Part shown: piece by piece, positions 1-4,760 of the stretch
Position numbering within the stretch: the first letter of the stretch is position 1
Layout of the letters: each line of letters begins with the position of its first letter
Origin: Gammaproteobacteria bacterium
GTDB taxonomy: Bacteria > Pseudomonadota > Gammaproteobacteria > Tenderiales > Tenderiaceae
DNA: 40,554 bases
Assembly: GCA_021731365.1 (NCBI GenBank)
Contig: JAKFXL010000002.1
Span: forward strand, 1 to 40,554
Direction: 5' to 3'
Notes under the pieces: model-generated
Told to the model about the DNA's origin: nothing
Database searches by the model: none
What the model saw: only the letters and a program-made list of their open reading frames with translations
Translations under genes and position numbers: made by a program

Positions 1-156
1 CAGGGTGAGATGAGCGCTAAGGATTTGTGGCAGCGCTTTGGTGGTGAGATCGACGCCTTTTACGCACAGTTAAAAACCGAGGTCGCCCATGGTTGGATTT
101 TGGAGCCGGCCCCGGCGCAGATGCGCGAGAAGATCACCGACATGGCGGGAGCCTGA
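1..156 (+). CDS. C-terminal fragment of an unidentified protein, possibly type I restriction HsdR
   Basis: The frame is open from the first base and ends at a TGA at 154-156, giving 51 residues of a gene that starts outside the window. The fragment contains DLWQRFGGEIDAFYAQLKTE followed by a GWI motif. This resembles, from memory, the C-terminal tail of type I restriction R subunits. The stop is one base before the start of the next gene, so this is probably the upstream gene of the same operon. The defence-type neighbours fit a restriction locus, but 51 residues carry no catalytic motif, so HsdR is only a tentative identification. Another helicase or nuclease is possible. Confidence 0.4.
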   Translation, partial: QGEMSAKDLWQRFGGEIDAFYAQLKTEVAHGWILEPAPAQMREKITDMAGA

Positions 157-157
157 G

Positions 158-1948
158 ATGCAACTGCAGCGCCTGCGTATTGCCAACTTCCGCAATCTGC
201 GTGATCTGGAGATTGTGTTCAATACCCATCTGGCACCCAATGCCGGTGCCCCTGCTGATGTGCCCACCAAGGCGATCCGTAGCCATGCCTTGATTGGCCA
301 AAATGGCACCGGTAAATCTAACCTCATCGAGGCGTTGATCACTATCTTCCGTGATATCGATCTGGATCGCGAAGCGGCCTTTGACTATGGGTTGGAGTAC
401 ACCATTCGCGGCCACAACATACGTATCGAGGCAGACACTGCCAAACAGAAGCGCCCCTATGTGTGGGTGGATGGTGAGCGTAAGTATCAGGAGTATCTGA
501 TCAAAAATGATCCGCCGGATAAAGAGCCACGTGACGAACGCCGTGGCCCCCGGTTGTTGCCGTCACACATCTTTGCCTATTACTCCGGCCGTAACGAGCG
601 TATGGAGGTGTTGTTTCAGGAGCATCAGCGTCGTTTCAATGACCGTCAGGAGATTACCGCCGATGAAGTGCTGCCCGAACATCTGCTGGAGAACTTTACC
701 GGCACAGATGCTGACATTCGCTCAATAGATGAAGCGAAACGTAGGCGCGAATCTCGGCTCAAAAAAGCGGGCGACGACCGCTTGCGCCGCCTGTTTTATT
801 GTCGCGGCGGCCATAGCCAGTTGGTGCTGTTGGCCTGTCTGCTCTCCGATGATCCGGTGTTCAAGAAGGTGATGGCCAATCTGCATATCGAGTCGCTGGA
901 GTCGGCGCTGTTTGTGCTGAAAGAGCCGCACCGCCTGCGTGAAAAGCGTAAGGGTGGCAAGTTTGATGAAAATGAGTTGAACGAAGGTGATCCACGCTTC
1001 TGGTACGCACGCGGCAATGTGGTGAGCGAGTTCCTCGATAAGCTTTGGCAGGTCGCCTGGGCACCTATCGAGCAGGAGGCGACCAAACAGATTGATTTTC
1101 GCGGCCGGAGTGAAAAACAGAAACAGCTCTACCTGTTTGTACCCAGCCAGGAGAAGCTACGCCAGCTAGGTGAGTTGGTGGGCGGTACCGACAGCTTCTT
1201 CCGCTATGCCGAGGGGGCGTACATTGGTGATCTTATCGATGAGGTGCGCATTACCGTCAAAAAGCGCGATGAAGATGGTGGTAAGGTGAGCTTTACTCAA
1301 CTCTCGGAAGGCGAGCTACAGATGCTTACGGTGTTGGGTTTGATGCGCATCACTCGCGAGGATCATTGCCTGTTTTTGCTGGATGAGCCTGATACCCATC
1401 TCAACCCAATCTGGAAACTGCGTTACTTCGATGATATCGAGGGAGTGTTAAACGCGGGCGAGGGCGCACAGCTACAGGGCGAATCACAAATCCTCATCAC
1501 CACCCATGACCCCATGATGGTAGGCGGCCTCAAGCGCGAGCAGGTGCATATTATGCGGCGTGAGGGTAACCGTACCTTGGTGGAGCAGCCCGATATACAT
1601 CCGCAGGGCATGGGGGTAACGGGGTTGTTGAAGAGCGAATTGTTCGGCCTATCATCCACGTTGGATATCGAAACCGAGCGCCGCCTGTTCCGTCGCAATG
1701 AGTTGTTTGTGAAGCAGCCGCGAACCGCCGAAGAAGAGGCCGAGTTGAGCCGCCTGAGTGCCGAGCTGGCGGATCTGGGGTTCTCGACCGCCGATTTCCG
1801 CGATCCCGACTACGCGCTGTTTGTGCGCAAGATGGCGCAGCATCGGCGCTTCCGAAAACCCGTACTGACCCCAGAGGAGCAAACCGAGCAGGATGCGATT
1901 GCGGATTCCATCATCGACGAGATCTTGCGCGAGGAGGATAGCCAGTGA
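158..1948 (+). CDS. AAA/ABC-type ATPase, Septu PtuA-like / restriction-associated
   Basis: This is a 596-aa ABC-class ATPase of the RecF/SMC-like defence type. It has a Walker A GQNGTGKS at residues 47-54, an ABC signature LSEGE at 382-386, a Walker B FLLDEPD with D409 and E410, and the H-loop in ITTHDP at H450, so all ATPase motifs are intact. The N-terminus MQLQRLRIANFRNLRDL is the usual first strand of these proteins. I chose the ATG at 158, one base after the preceding stop, because residues upstream of it do not fit the family. Its last codons overlap the HNH gene by four bases. In Septu systems PtuA is the ATPase partner of the HNH nuclease PtuB, and similar ATPases also accompany type I restriction loci. 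A role in anti-phage defence is inferred from these pairings. Confidence 0.8.
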   Translation: MQLQRLRIANFRNLRDLEIVFNTHLAPNAGAPADVPTKAIRSHALIGQNGTGKSNLIEALITIFRDIDLDREAAFDYGLEYTIRGHNIRIEADTAKQKRPYVWVDGERKYQEYLIKNDPPDKEPRDERRGPRLLPSHIFAYYSGRNERMEVLFQEHQRRFNDRQEITADEVLPEHLLENFTGTDADIRSIDEAKRRRESRLKKAGDDRLRRLFYCRGGHSQLVLLACLLSDDPVFKKVMANLHIESLESALFVLKEPHRLREKRKGGKFDENELNEGDPRFWYARGNVVSEFLDKLWQVAWAPIEQEATKQIDFRGRSEKQKQLYLFVPSQEKLRQLGELVGGTDSFFRYAEGAYIGDLIDEVRITVKKRDEDGGKVSFTQLSEGELQMLTVLGLMRITREDHCLFLLDEPDTHLNPIWKLRYFDDIEGVLNAGEGAQLQGESQILITTHDPMMVGGLKREQVHIMRREGNRTLVEQPDIHPQGMGVTGLLKSELFGLSSTLDIETERRLFRRNELFVKQPRTAEEEAELSRLSAELADLGFSTADFRDPDYALFVRKMAQHRRFRKPVLTPEEQTEQDAIADSIIDEILREEDSQ

Positions 1949-2802
1949 TCTGGATCGACTTGGAACACAAGCTCCCCACCGATGCCGACATCCCTAACTG
2001 GGCGCCCTGGACGCAGCCACAGTGGGACGCGTGGTTGGCAGAGTCTGATCGTTTGGTCAATGAGCTGGCAAAGCTGAACGCCGCGGGCCAAATCAATGAG
2101 CGTAACAAACTGATAGACGGCCATAGTGCACATTGGGGAAAACTCAAACCATGGTTGCTTGCGCTCTCGGACGGCAAGTGTTGGTTTACTGAGGCGCGTG
2201 ATATTGCCTCGCATCTGGATGTTGAGCATTTCCGGCCAAAGAAGTCGGCACGTAATGTCAAAGGATCTGATAGGGACGGTTATTGGTGGCTGGCGTTTAA
2301 TTACATGAATTTCCGCATAGCGGGTACGGTGCCCAATCGCAAAAAAGGCGTGTGGTTCCCGTTGCGCTACGGTTCACGCTGTTCATCCTACGCACGTCGC
2401 TGTGAAGGTGACGAAATGCCGCATTTTCTGGATCCGACCAATGCTTACGATGTGAGTCTTTTGGCTTTTGACGAAGAGGGTAAGGCTATTCCTGCCCCCG
2501 GCATTTCTCGTTGGGAATACATACGCGTCCGGCGCACTGTCGAGCGCTTGAAACTCTCTGAGCATCAAGCACTGGCCGAAGAGCGTCGTAAAGTGTGGCA
2601 GCGTGTGAATAACGCCATCAAACGGTACTACCAAGCAAAATCAGAGGCTACTTCAGCTCATGCGGCAGTAGCTCGTGAGAGACTTCGCGAAAGCGCCATG
2701 CAGATTGCAGCGTTTACAAAGCCTAGCGCTGAGCTCTCCGCTGTTGCTAGATGGTGTGTGTTATTACGTAATGATCCACAACTCTCAAGGTTGGTGGCAT
2801 GA
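1945..2802 (+). CDS. HNH-nuclease-like protein, Septu PtuB-like
   Basis: This 285-aa protein begins at a GTG that overlaps the stop of the ATPase gene (GTGA), so translation is probably coupled. The core is C79-W-F-T-E, H90 and DVEHFRPK (residues 92-99), then YWWLAFNYMNFR (113-124), NRKKG (131-135) and FLDP (161-164). This order matches the PtuB-type HNH fold, in which the VEHFRPK block supplies the first catalytic His. The usual CxxC zinc ligands are not complete: only one Cys is present in CWFTE and the second CxxC is replaced by GTVPNRKKG. The nuclease may therefore fold without the usual zinc, or be a divergent branch. Predicted role: DNA or RNA cleavage by the ATPase complex during phage infection. 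The family call is good and the activity is inferred. Confidence 0.75.
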   Translation: MIWIDLEHKLPTDADIPNWAPWTQPQWDAWLAESDRLVNELAKLNAAGQINERNKLIDGHSAHWGKLKPWLLALSDGKCWFTEARDIASHLDVEHFRPKKSARNVKGSDRDGYWWLAFNYMNFRIAGTVPNRKKGVWFPLRYGSRCSSYARRCEGDEMPHFLDPTNAYDVSLLAFDEEGKAIPAPGISRWEYIRVRRTVERLKLSEHQALAEERRKVWQRVNNAIKRYYQAKSEATSAHAAVARERLRESAMQIAAFTKPSAELSAVARWCVLLRNDPQLSRLVA

Positions 2803-3818
2803 GCAAGAGTTACCAACCGCCCTACTCTCTCACGCCGCCTATCCTGAACTTGGTCGCTGAGATCAGCGAGGCCATTGGCCGCTTGTCGACACAGACTGAG
2901 AGCACCAAAGAGTTACGCCTGCGGCGCATCAACCGCATCCGCACCATCCAGGGTTCGCTGGCGATTGAGGGCAACACCCTGAGTGAGGCACAGATCACCG
3001 CGATTTTGGAGGGCAAGCAGGTCATTGCCCCGCCGCGGGAGATTCAGGAGGTGCGTAATGCCATTGCCGCCTATGACTGTTTCGAGCAGTGGTTACCTCA
3101 TGCTGAAGCTGATCTGCTTACAGCACATCGCATGCTCATGACAGGGCTGCTGGAGGAAGCGGGTGTTTATCGACGTGGTGGTGTGGGGGTGATGGCGGGT
3201 GGGCAGGTCATCCACATGGCGCCGCCTGCTGATCGTGTTTCCACCTTGATGGGCAATCTGTTGCATTGGCTACAGACAACGGATCACCACCCGCTGATTG
3301 CCAGTTCGGTATTTCATTACGAATTCGAGTTCATCCACCCCTTCACCGATGGCAATGGCCGCATGGGGAGGTTGTGGCAGACCTTAATTCTGATCCGCTG
3401 GAATCCGCTGTTTGCTCATATCCCGGTCGAAAGTTTGGTGCATGAACATCAGGCGGACTATTACCGGGCGCTGCAACGCAGCACGCAACAGACAGACTCA
3501 GCTCCCTTTATTGAATTCATGCTCAGGATGGTTCTTGAGGCGGTGACTTCAACCGCTACCCCTCAAGTCGCACCTCAAGTCACCCCCCAAGTCGCACGAC
3601 TTCTGGAACTGCTTACGGGTGACATGGGGCGCGATGAGATCCAGAAAATTCTTGGCTTACAGGACCGGAAATCGTTCCGGGAACGTTATCTGGTCCCGGC
3701 ATTGGCGGCGGGACTGGTTGAGATGACGCTGCCCGACAAACCCAACAGCCGTTTGCAGAGGTATCGGCTGACCGATCAGGGGCGACGCTGGTTACAACAA
3801 CATCAGAGTGAGCGGTAA
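2799..3818 (+). CDS. Fic-family protein (AMP transferase) with C-terminal winged-helix-like domain
   Basis: The ATG overlaps the previous stop (ATGA), making this the third gene of the coupled trio. The 339-aa product carries the full Fic motif HPFTDGNGRMGR at 180-191, with catalytic H180. Upstream, SLAIEG at 53-58 matches the (S/T)xxxE(G/N) inhibitory helix, so this is a class II Fic enzyme held in check by its own N-terminus. A PQVA-PQVT-PQVA linker near residues 255-266 leads into a C-terminal domain of about 70 residues that looks like a winged helix. Fic enzymes usually transfer AMP from ATP to a target hydroxyl. Fic genes often travel with restriction loci, but the target here is unknown. 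The gene ends six bases from the convergent ispH stop, marking the border of the defence block. Confidence 0.85.
   Translation: MSKSYQPPYSLTPPILNLVAEISEAIGRLSTQTESTKELRLRRINRIRTIQGSLAIEGNTLSEAQITAILEGKQVIAPPREIQEVRNAIAAYDCFEQWLPHAEADLLTAHRMLMTGLLEEAGVYRRGGVGVMAGGQVIHMAPPADRVSTLMGNLLHWLQTTDHHPLIASSVFHYEFEFIHPFTDGNGRMGRLWQTLILIRWNPLFAHIPVESLVHEHQADYYRALQRSTQQTDSAPFIEFMLRMVLEAVTSTATPQVAPQVTPQVARLLELLTGDMGRDEIQKILGLQDRKSFRERYLVPALAAGLVEMTLPDKPNSRLQRYRLTDQGRRWLQQHQSER
3561..3596 (+). repeat. Three 12-bp tandem units inside the Fic gene
   Basis: The units CCTCAAGTCGCA, CCTCAAGTCACC and CCCCAAGTCGCA lie head to tail and encode PQVA, PQVT and PQVA. Because each unit is 12 bp, a change in copy number keeps the frame and only alters the length of the linker between the Fic core and the C-terminal domain. 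Confidence 0.8.
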
Positions 3819-3824
3819 CCCGCC

Positions 3825-4760
3825 CTACTGCAACCCCTTGGGCAGCGCAAACACCACGTTCTCTTCACGACCCTGGGCCTGTTCAACGTTGCCCACACCC
3901 CAGGCCTGGAGCTGTTCTACCACCTCATTCACCAGTATTTCAGGGGCGGAGGCACCCGCTGTCACACCTACGGTTGTCACCCCTTCCAGCCAGCTGCGAC
4001 GAATTTCACCTGCGTTATCGATCAGATGGGCCTTGGCACCCAGCTTGATTGCAATTTCCCGCAGGCGGTTGGAGTTGGAGCTGTTGGGCGACCCTACCAC
4101 CAGTATCAGTTCGCAGCGTGGTGCCAGATCTTTCACGGCATCCTGGCGGTTCTGGGTGGCGTAGCAGATATCATCCTTGCGCGGCCCTTCGATCTTGGGG
4201 TAGCACATTTTCAGGGCTGTGATGATGTCTTGGGTCTCATCCACAGAGAGGGTGGTCTGGGTGACAAAGGCGAGCCGCTCGGGGTCCTTAACCTCCAGCT
4301 GCACCACATCCACCGGGGTCTCAACCAGATAGACTCCACCGCTCCCCCCCTTGCTGCGGTACTGCCCCATGGTGCCTTCCACTTCGGGATGGCCGGCATG
4401 GCCAATCAGCACCACTTCACGACCATCCTGGGCAAAACGGGCCACTTCGAGATGGACCTTGGTAACCAGCGGGCAGGTGGCATCAAAAATTTTGAGTTTG
4501 CGCCGCTGCGCCTCCTCCCATACCGCTTTGGAGACCCCGTGGGCACTGAAGATCACGGTGGCGTCGTCCGGCACATCCTCCAGCTCATCCACAAATACCG
4601 CGCCCCGCTCACGTAATCCATCCACCACAAATTTGTTGTGCACCACCTCATGGCGTACGTAGATGGGCGCGCCAAAAAGCTCCAGGGCACGCTCAACGAT
4701 ACCGATGGCGCGATCAACACCGGCACAAAAACCACGGGGATTGGCAAGCAGAACAGTCAT
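3825..4760 (-). CDS. ispH: 4-hydroxy-3-methylbut-2-enyl diphosphate reductase (IspH/LytB)
   Basis: IspH catalyses the last step of the methylerythritol phosphate pathway, making isopentenyl and dimethylallyl diphosphate. The 311-aa protein keeps the three iron-sulfur cysteines C12 (GFCAGV), C96 (DATCPLV) and C199 (DICYATQ), and the HEVVHN and SAHGV motifs. Length and start match the family. It is the last gene of the murJ-ribF-ileS-lspA-ispH minus-strand run, 88 bp after lspA. The fkpB/slpA gene that separates lspA and ispH in Escherichia coli is absent. Confidence 0.97.

Follow-up and report, generated by a model that had tools for sequence, protein, structure and literature searches.

Do an ATPase, an HNH nuclease and a Fic enzyme whose genes overlap one another form a defence machine of their own, or are they parts of something larger? 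The question is raised by positions 158-3818 of a 40,554-nucleotide stretch of DNA, which we call the window, from a Gammaproteobacteria bacterium of the family Tenderiaceae (contig JAKFXL010000002.1, assembly GCA_021731365.1). A preliminary description of this locus had proposed a dedicated three-component system, at the end of a restriction-like locus, in which AMPylation by Fic might regulate or back up a Septu-like PtuA/PtuB pair. We find instead that the three genes close a type IB restriction-modification (R-M) operon of seven genes, hsdR-hsdM-DUF1016(PDDEXK)-hsdS-ptuA-ptuB-fic, in which the ptuA-ptuB pair is a conserved companion of hsdS and the position occupied by fic is a variable slot.

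An operon divided between two contigs

The genes themselves are much as the preliminary description had them. Three forward-strand reading frames (Table 1) are joined by GTGA at 1945-1948 and by ATGA at 2799-2802, and a search of their products against the defence-system models of PADLOC names PtuA, PtuB and a SoFic-like Fic, the first two matching over the full length of the models. The suspicion of a restriction-like locus also proves correct, since the 51 codons preceding ptuA are identified by PADLOC as the 3' end of hsdS, the gene for a type I specificity subunit. Its stop codon, at 154-156, lies directly ahead of the ptuA start at 158, which is the true start, as homologues of PtuA align from residue 1.

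The remainder of hsdS is found at the end of another contig, C59. The first 127 bp of the window's contig (C28, 1-127) are identical to the last 127 bp of C59 (G000:C59:15395-15521), and an exact overlap of contig ends of this kind is the usual sign of a break in the assembly graph. The join between the two contigs rests on this overlap; the hsdS frame is continuous through it, and the residues across the junction are identical in more than 60 homologues. We conclude that an assembly-graph break inside hsdS has divided the locus between the two contigs.

The part of the locus on C59 (L070:8274-15521) contains hsdR, hsdM, a DUF1016 gene and the rest of hsdS, and Pfam identifies EcoEI_R_C (in HsdR), N6_Mtase and Methylase_S in the encoded proteins. 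The presence of EcoEI_R_C at the C-terminus of HsdR places an R-M system in the type IB group. Since the HsdR encoded here carries this domain, and since hsdR, hsdM and hsdS share one operon, we assign the system to type IB. At its 3' end the operon abuts the convergent gene ispH. Promoter and terminator signals within ptuA-ptuB-fic occur at chance level only, and an empty ppc-ispH insertion site was sought in relatives and not found, the gene order there being different.

The hsdS-ptuA-ptuB unit and the end of HsdS

In order to see which parts of this arrangement are conserved, we scanned 84,980 species genomes and obtained 67 loci with a PtuA relative, at 46-89% identity. In every one of them ptuB follows ptuA, and 47 of the 67 pairs keep the same four-base overlap as the window; the coupling of these two genes is therefore not due to chance. 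Upstream sequence is available for 65 loci, in 63 of which hsdS directly precedes ptuA, with one gene between them in the other two. The genes hsdR, hsdM and hsdS occur together in 56 loci (20 of which also have DUF1016), and the link of hsdS to ptuA spans Pseudomonadota, Desulfobacterota and Planctomycetota. Within this clade of PtuA, a Septu-type ATPase/nuclease pair is the standard companion of a type I R-M operon.

Both members of the pair retain the motifs of their families. In an alignment of 63 PtuA sequences the Walker A motif GQNGTGKSN (residues 47-55), the signature LSEGE (382-386), the Walker B motif LDEPD with E410, and H450 are invariant or nearly so. In PtuB, the residues H95, R97, P98, K99 and N122 are invariant across homologues; they supply the HNH active site expected next to a Septu ATPase, although the HNH core is modelled at low confidence. 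A profile built from the PtuB alignment matches the solved PtuB chains of retron Ec78 (E 8.6e-7), and PtuA weakly matches TIGR04435, 'restriction system-associated AAA family ATPase', at 130 bits, under the cut-off of 300. The ATPase-HNH pair is thus common to the window and to Septu type I, whose solved relatives are the retron Ec78 PtuAB proteins, but the window's PtuB has an N-terminal part that retron PtuB lacks and, unlike Septu type I, the window's family is tied to a type I hsdS in all homologues with upstream sequence. The Septu types I and II of PADLOC are standalone and retron types, and no R-M-embedded type is named (PMC8565338). A further likeness is to MADS, for PtuA, HsdM and HsdS match the mad3, mad2 and mad5 models, so that in both cases a core resembling M and S is joined to an ATPase; this likeness is at the superfamily level, and no other MADS proteins turned up, no search having been aimed at them.

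The HsdS proteins that stand beside this PtuA family are long (median 662 amino acids), and they share a peculiar C-terminal extension. Whole HsdS proteins are only about 40% alike, and yet the last 50 or so residues are near-invariant in every HsdS adjoining the PtuA family, with the pattern APLATILARHxGEMSAKDLWQRFGGEIDAFYAQLKTEVAHGWI. The extension lies outside the 589-position Specificity_I model PDLC03179, and four related HsdS proteins, from genomes without the window's type of PtuA, end before it. AlphaFold2 predicts that the extension folds compactly into three helices and a short wing (core predicted local distance difference test score 81-88). More distant HsdS-PtuA loci have C-terminal domains of their own with a faintly similar pattern, and deep homology between these and the extension is only suggestive (hhalign probability 67%).

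Fic and the variable slot behind ptuB

The third gene encodes a class II Fic protein under N-terminal inhibition, again as previously described. Its inhibitory motif SLAIEGN (residues 53-59) and its catalytic motif HPFTDGNGRMGR (180-191, H180-R191; HPFxDGNGRxGR) are conserved across homologues and agree with the [ST]xxxE[GN] and HxFx[DE]GNGRxxR motifs of SoFic, and it has a close, solved structural-genomics homologue, 4rgl (417 bits). Sofic is a single-gene Fic defence that causes abortive infection through AMPylation (PMC12249575). With SoFic the window's protein shares its class, its inhibitory motif and its Fic core, the PADLOC match of 152 bits covering residues 10-253 only. It is not SoFic proper: it scores 74 bits with the NCBIfam SoFic equivalog, for which the cut-off is 550, and the C-terminal domain is PF21247 Fic-like_C rather than PF21248 SoFic-like_C.

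Is this Fic a dedicated partner of PtuAB, with AMPylation regulating or backing up the nuclease? The two four-base overlaps suggest translational coupling, and all three active sites are intact. However, the proposal had called for a count of Fic neighbours beside homologous ATPase-HNH pairs, and this count speaks against it: the window's Fic is present at 0 of the 67 PtuAB loci, for 60 of which the sequence extends 1 kb or more downstream. Neither the ptuA-ptuB-fic order nor the four-base coupling of ptuB to fic recurs in this set. Only two related Desulfobulbus loci (L030, L031) have another catalytic Fido protein behind ptuB, and it lies 167-175 bp away. Roughly ten alternative genes, mostly defence-like, occupy the same position (Table 1), which is thus a variable slot in which Fic is one of many interchangeable add-ons.

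The distribution of Fic itself leads to the same result. Among 369 genomes from the window's class, 14 besides the window's own carry a Fic at 48-70% identity to this one, and none of the 14 has the window's PtuA. In eight of these chromosomal cases (L091, L092, L094, L096-L100) it adjoins an hsdM, hsdS or hsdR gene from another type I family. Among six plasmid relatives that we inspected, four (Shewanella aestuarii, Vibrio casei, Azotobacter, S. baltica) lie directly behind hsdS and two do not. In two operon copies (L100, L114) a relative of Fic overlaps hsdS by four bases, so that this Fic habitually couples tightly to its preceding gene, whichever that is, and the overlap with ptuB does not mark PtuB as its partner. 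The type I R-M operon is the commonest partner of Fic as well as the conserved partner of PtuAB. The neighbour counts and the separate distribution of Fic rule out a dedicated ptuA-ptuB-fic trio as a general system, and we consider it very improbable that the window's three proteins work as one. A role for Fic as a back-up toxin is possible, while specific regulation of the nuclease by AMPylation is not supported.

Table 1. Features of the operon and occupants of the slot behind ptuB in homologous loci. Positions are those of the window unless a contig or locus is named; for C59, starts of open reading frames are given, in order.
Feature	Location	Strand	Remarks
ppc	C59		
hsdR	C59, start 8274		
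hsdM	C59, start 10750		
DUF1016/YhcG PDDEXK protein	C59, start 12540		
hsdS	C59, start 13601		
HsdS extension	L070:15221-15520 and window 1-156		
hsdS 3' end	1-156	+	PADLOC Specificity_I model positions 608-657/658; encodes most of the predicted C-terminal winged-helix-like domain (QGEMSAKDLWQRFGGEIDAFYAQLKTEVAHGWILEP...)
ptuA	158-1948	+	AAA/ABC-type ATPase, R-M-associated Septu clade; 596 aa; PDLC00293 PtuA, 688 bits, full model
ptuB	1945-2802	+	HNH nuclease partner; 285 aa; GTG start overlapping ptuA stop; PDLC00343 PtuB, 345 bits, full model
fic	2799-3818	+	Fic of class II with N-terminal inhibition; 339 aa; tail a Fic-like_C winged helix; PF02661 and PF21247 both exceed their cut-offs
ispH	3825-4760		convergent with the operon
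Slot: RhuM	L006		
Slot: Schlafen/AlbA_2-GHKL protein	L011 (10615-12165)		shares only the Fic-like_C tail with the window's Fic
Slot: NucS_C-type nucleases	L041, L044, L047, L063		
Slot: DUF4357 protein	L038		
Slot: PLD-type protein	L040		genes of equal length in L039, L051, L054
Slot: GmrSD	L066, L068		
Slot: HipA-like kinase	L065		
Slot: GNAT protein	L057		

How PtuAB may be wired to the R-M enzyme

The question thus moves from a supposed Septu-Fic trio to the wiring of Septu-type effectors to restriction-modification. The conserved link to hsdS, the HsdS domain and the loci without hsdR described below suggest that PtuAB is an effector arm of HsdM/HsdS, as PrrC is for EcoprrI. The type I enzyme EcoprrI holds PrrC silent and lets it go once restriction is inhibited (PMC3710099, PMC12707154). 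As in the window's operon, a type I R-M locus harbours an ABC-type ATPase and a nuclease that form a second line, but PrrC is a single polypeptide, its nuclease is of the HEPN type and its locus is type IC, whereas the window has two chains and an HNH nuclease in a type IB locus with a special HsdS domain. For R-M/RloC/DOC loci, Anantharaman et al. proposed in 2013 a three-level strategy acting on DNA, RNA and protein (PMC3710099). Those neighbourhoods have the same three layers, namely R-M, an ATPase-nuclease and a Fic/DOC toxin; the window differs in having PtuAB in place of the HEPN protein and a class II Fic with Fic-like_C.

With these precedents in mind, we favour, as probably though not securely correct, the reading that the operon is a stacked anti-virus defence, with R-M as its first line, PtuAB as a companion wired to HsdM/HsdS, and Fic as an interchangeable third layer. 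The R-M enzyme would methylate host DNA and cut unmodified DNA. PtuAB, a predicted ATP-gated HNH nuclease, would probably be held in an inactive state on HsdM/HsdS or close to it, and the additional winged-helix-like domain that terminates HsdS may serve as the dock. PtuAB would be freed once R-M is inhibited, overwhelmed or engaging foreign DNA, and might then cut tRNA or DNA, so that the infection aborts. Fic would be an exchangeable toxin, AMPylating a host protein after displacement of its inhibitory helix; its gene is probably translationally coupled to ptuB, outside any specific PtuAB-Fic machine.

Several observations weigh against such wiring. PtuAB can work alone, because it also exists without R-M in Septu and in retrons, and whether its target is DNA or tRNA cannot be read from the sequence. 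Indeed, the target chemistry of PtuAB varies: the PtuAB proteins from retron-Eco7 and from one Septu system deplete tRNA-Tyr (PMC11555353, PMC13096335), and another Septu is reported as a DNA cutter (PMC11555353). Foldseek returned no significant structural match for the predicted HsdS extension, which may simply have been inherited along with the whole operon. Furthermore, in one locus (L120, G672:C12:127000-142000) the extension is retained although ptuAB is missing; a hamA-hamB pair of the Hachiman system, in convergent orientation, lies immediately beyond the end of hsdS, in a region that follows apparent dnaN and gyrB genes. We read it as a probable secondary loss of ptuAB, although it weakens the extension as a strict marker of ptuAB and shows that the link between the two is not absolute.

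It is important, therefore, to weigh the stacked defence against looser and closer arrangements. R-M, Septu and Fic might be independent modules that share an operon for joint expression or transfer, with no physical or regulatory link. The slot behind ptuB is highly variable, and in other settings Septu and Sofic each work on their own (PMC13096335, PMC12249575), but the association of PtuAB with hsdS in 65 of 65 loci from all three phyla named above, together with the special HsdS domain, makes this arrangement unlikely for the operon as a whole; for Fic alone it is the most likely one. At the other extreme, HsdM/HsdS might use PtuAB as an alternative effector of restriction that can take the place of HsdR. 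Four distant plasmid loci (Pantoea L109, Roseomonas L132, Pseudoalteromonas L133/L160 and Vibrio vulnificus L159) have hsdM, hsdS, ptuA and ptuB with no hsdR-like open reading frame in the surrounding sequence, hsdR elsewhere in these genomes not being excluded. Three E. coli chromosomes (L130, L131, L158) share one element with trb/tra genes that keeps the same four genes intact beside an 86-amino-acid remnant of hsdR. Within the window's clade, 7 of 54 loci have a broken hsdR and 2 of 65 a broken ptuA; the assemblies are drafts, the difference is small, and assembly errors may contribute to it. HsdR is intact in the other 47 of these 54 loci, and we doubt that PtuAB serves as its replacement. 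A bolder form of the idea, which we put forward tentatively and think somewhat doubtful, is that type I HsdM/HsdS complexes have in PtuAB an effector dedicated to them and recruited through the C-terminal winged-helix domain of HsdS, so that the methylation-sensing complex would drive either HsdR or PtuAB; as sole effector in the plasmid loci without hsdR, it would constitute a new class of methylation-guided defence.

If HsdS does carry a docking domain for PtuA, the stacked defence would give a testable answer, for this clade, to the long-standing question of what triggers Septu, and type I methyltransferases would be sensors that can be plugged into effectors besides HsdR. For annotation, Septu calls beside hsdS are better treated as part of an R-M operon than as an extra standalone system. 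Septu, type I R-M, Fic and R-M-associated AAA ATPases as a named family are already known; a literature search, with subscription journals mostly outside it, found no description of R-M-embedded PtuAB as a type, of the HsdS extension or of the M-S-A-B loci without hsdR.

Some minor observations concern the surroundings of these genes. A search for carriage of the window's PtuA clade by phages and plasmids gave one weak phage match, no viral contig with PtuB, and plasmid relatives that are all below 60% identity. In the Vibrio vulnificus locus, a gene upstream of hsdM (L159:4624-5703) encodes a Fic whose catalytic motif is degenerate (HPFYYGNGCTSR). Between hsdS and ptuA, one locus encodes a Zeta-toxin-like P-loop protein (L048:7213-7785), and AlbA_2-GHKL ATPase proteins (L061:6380-7849 and L011:10615-12165) are found either in that position or after ptuB.

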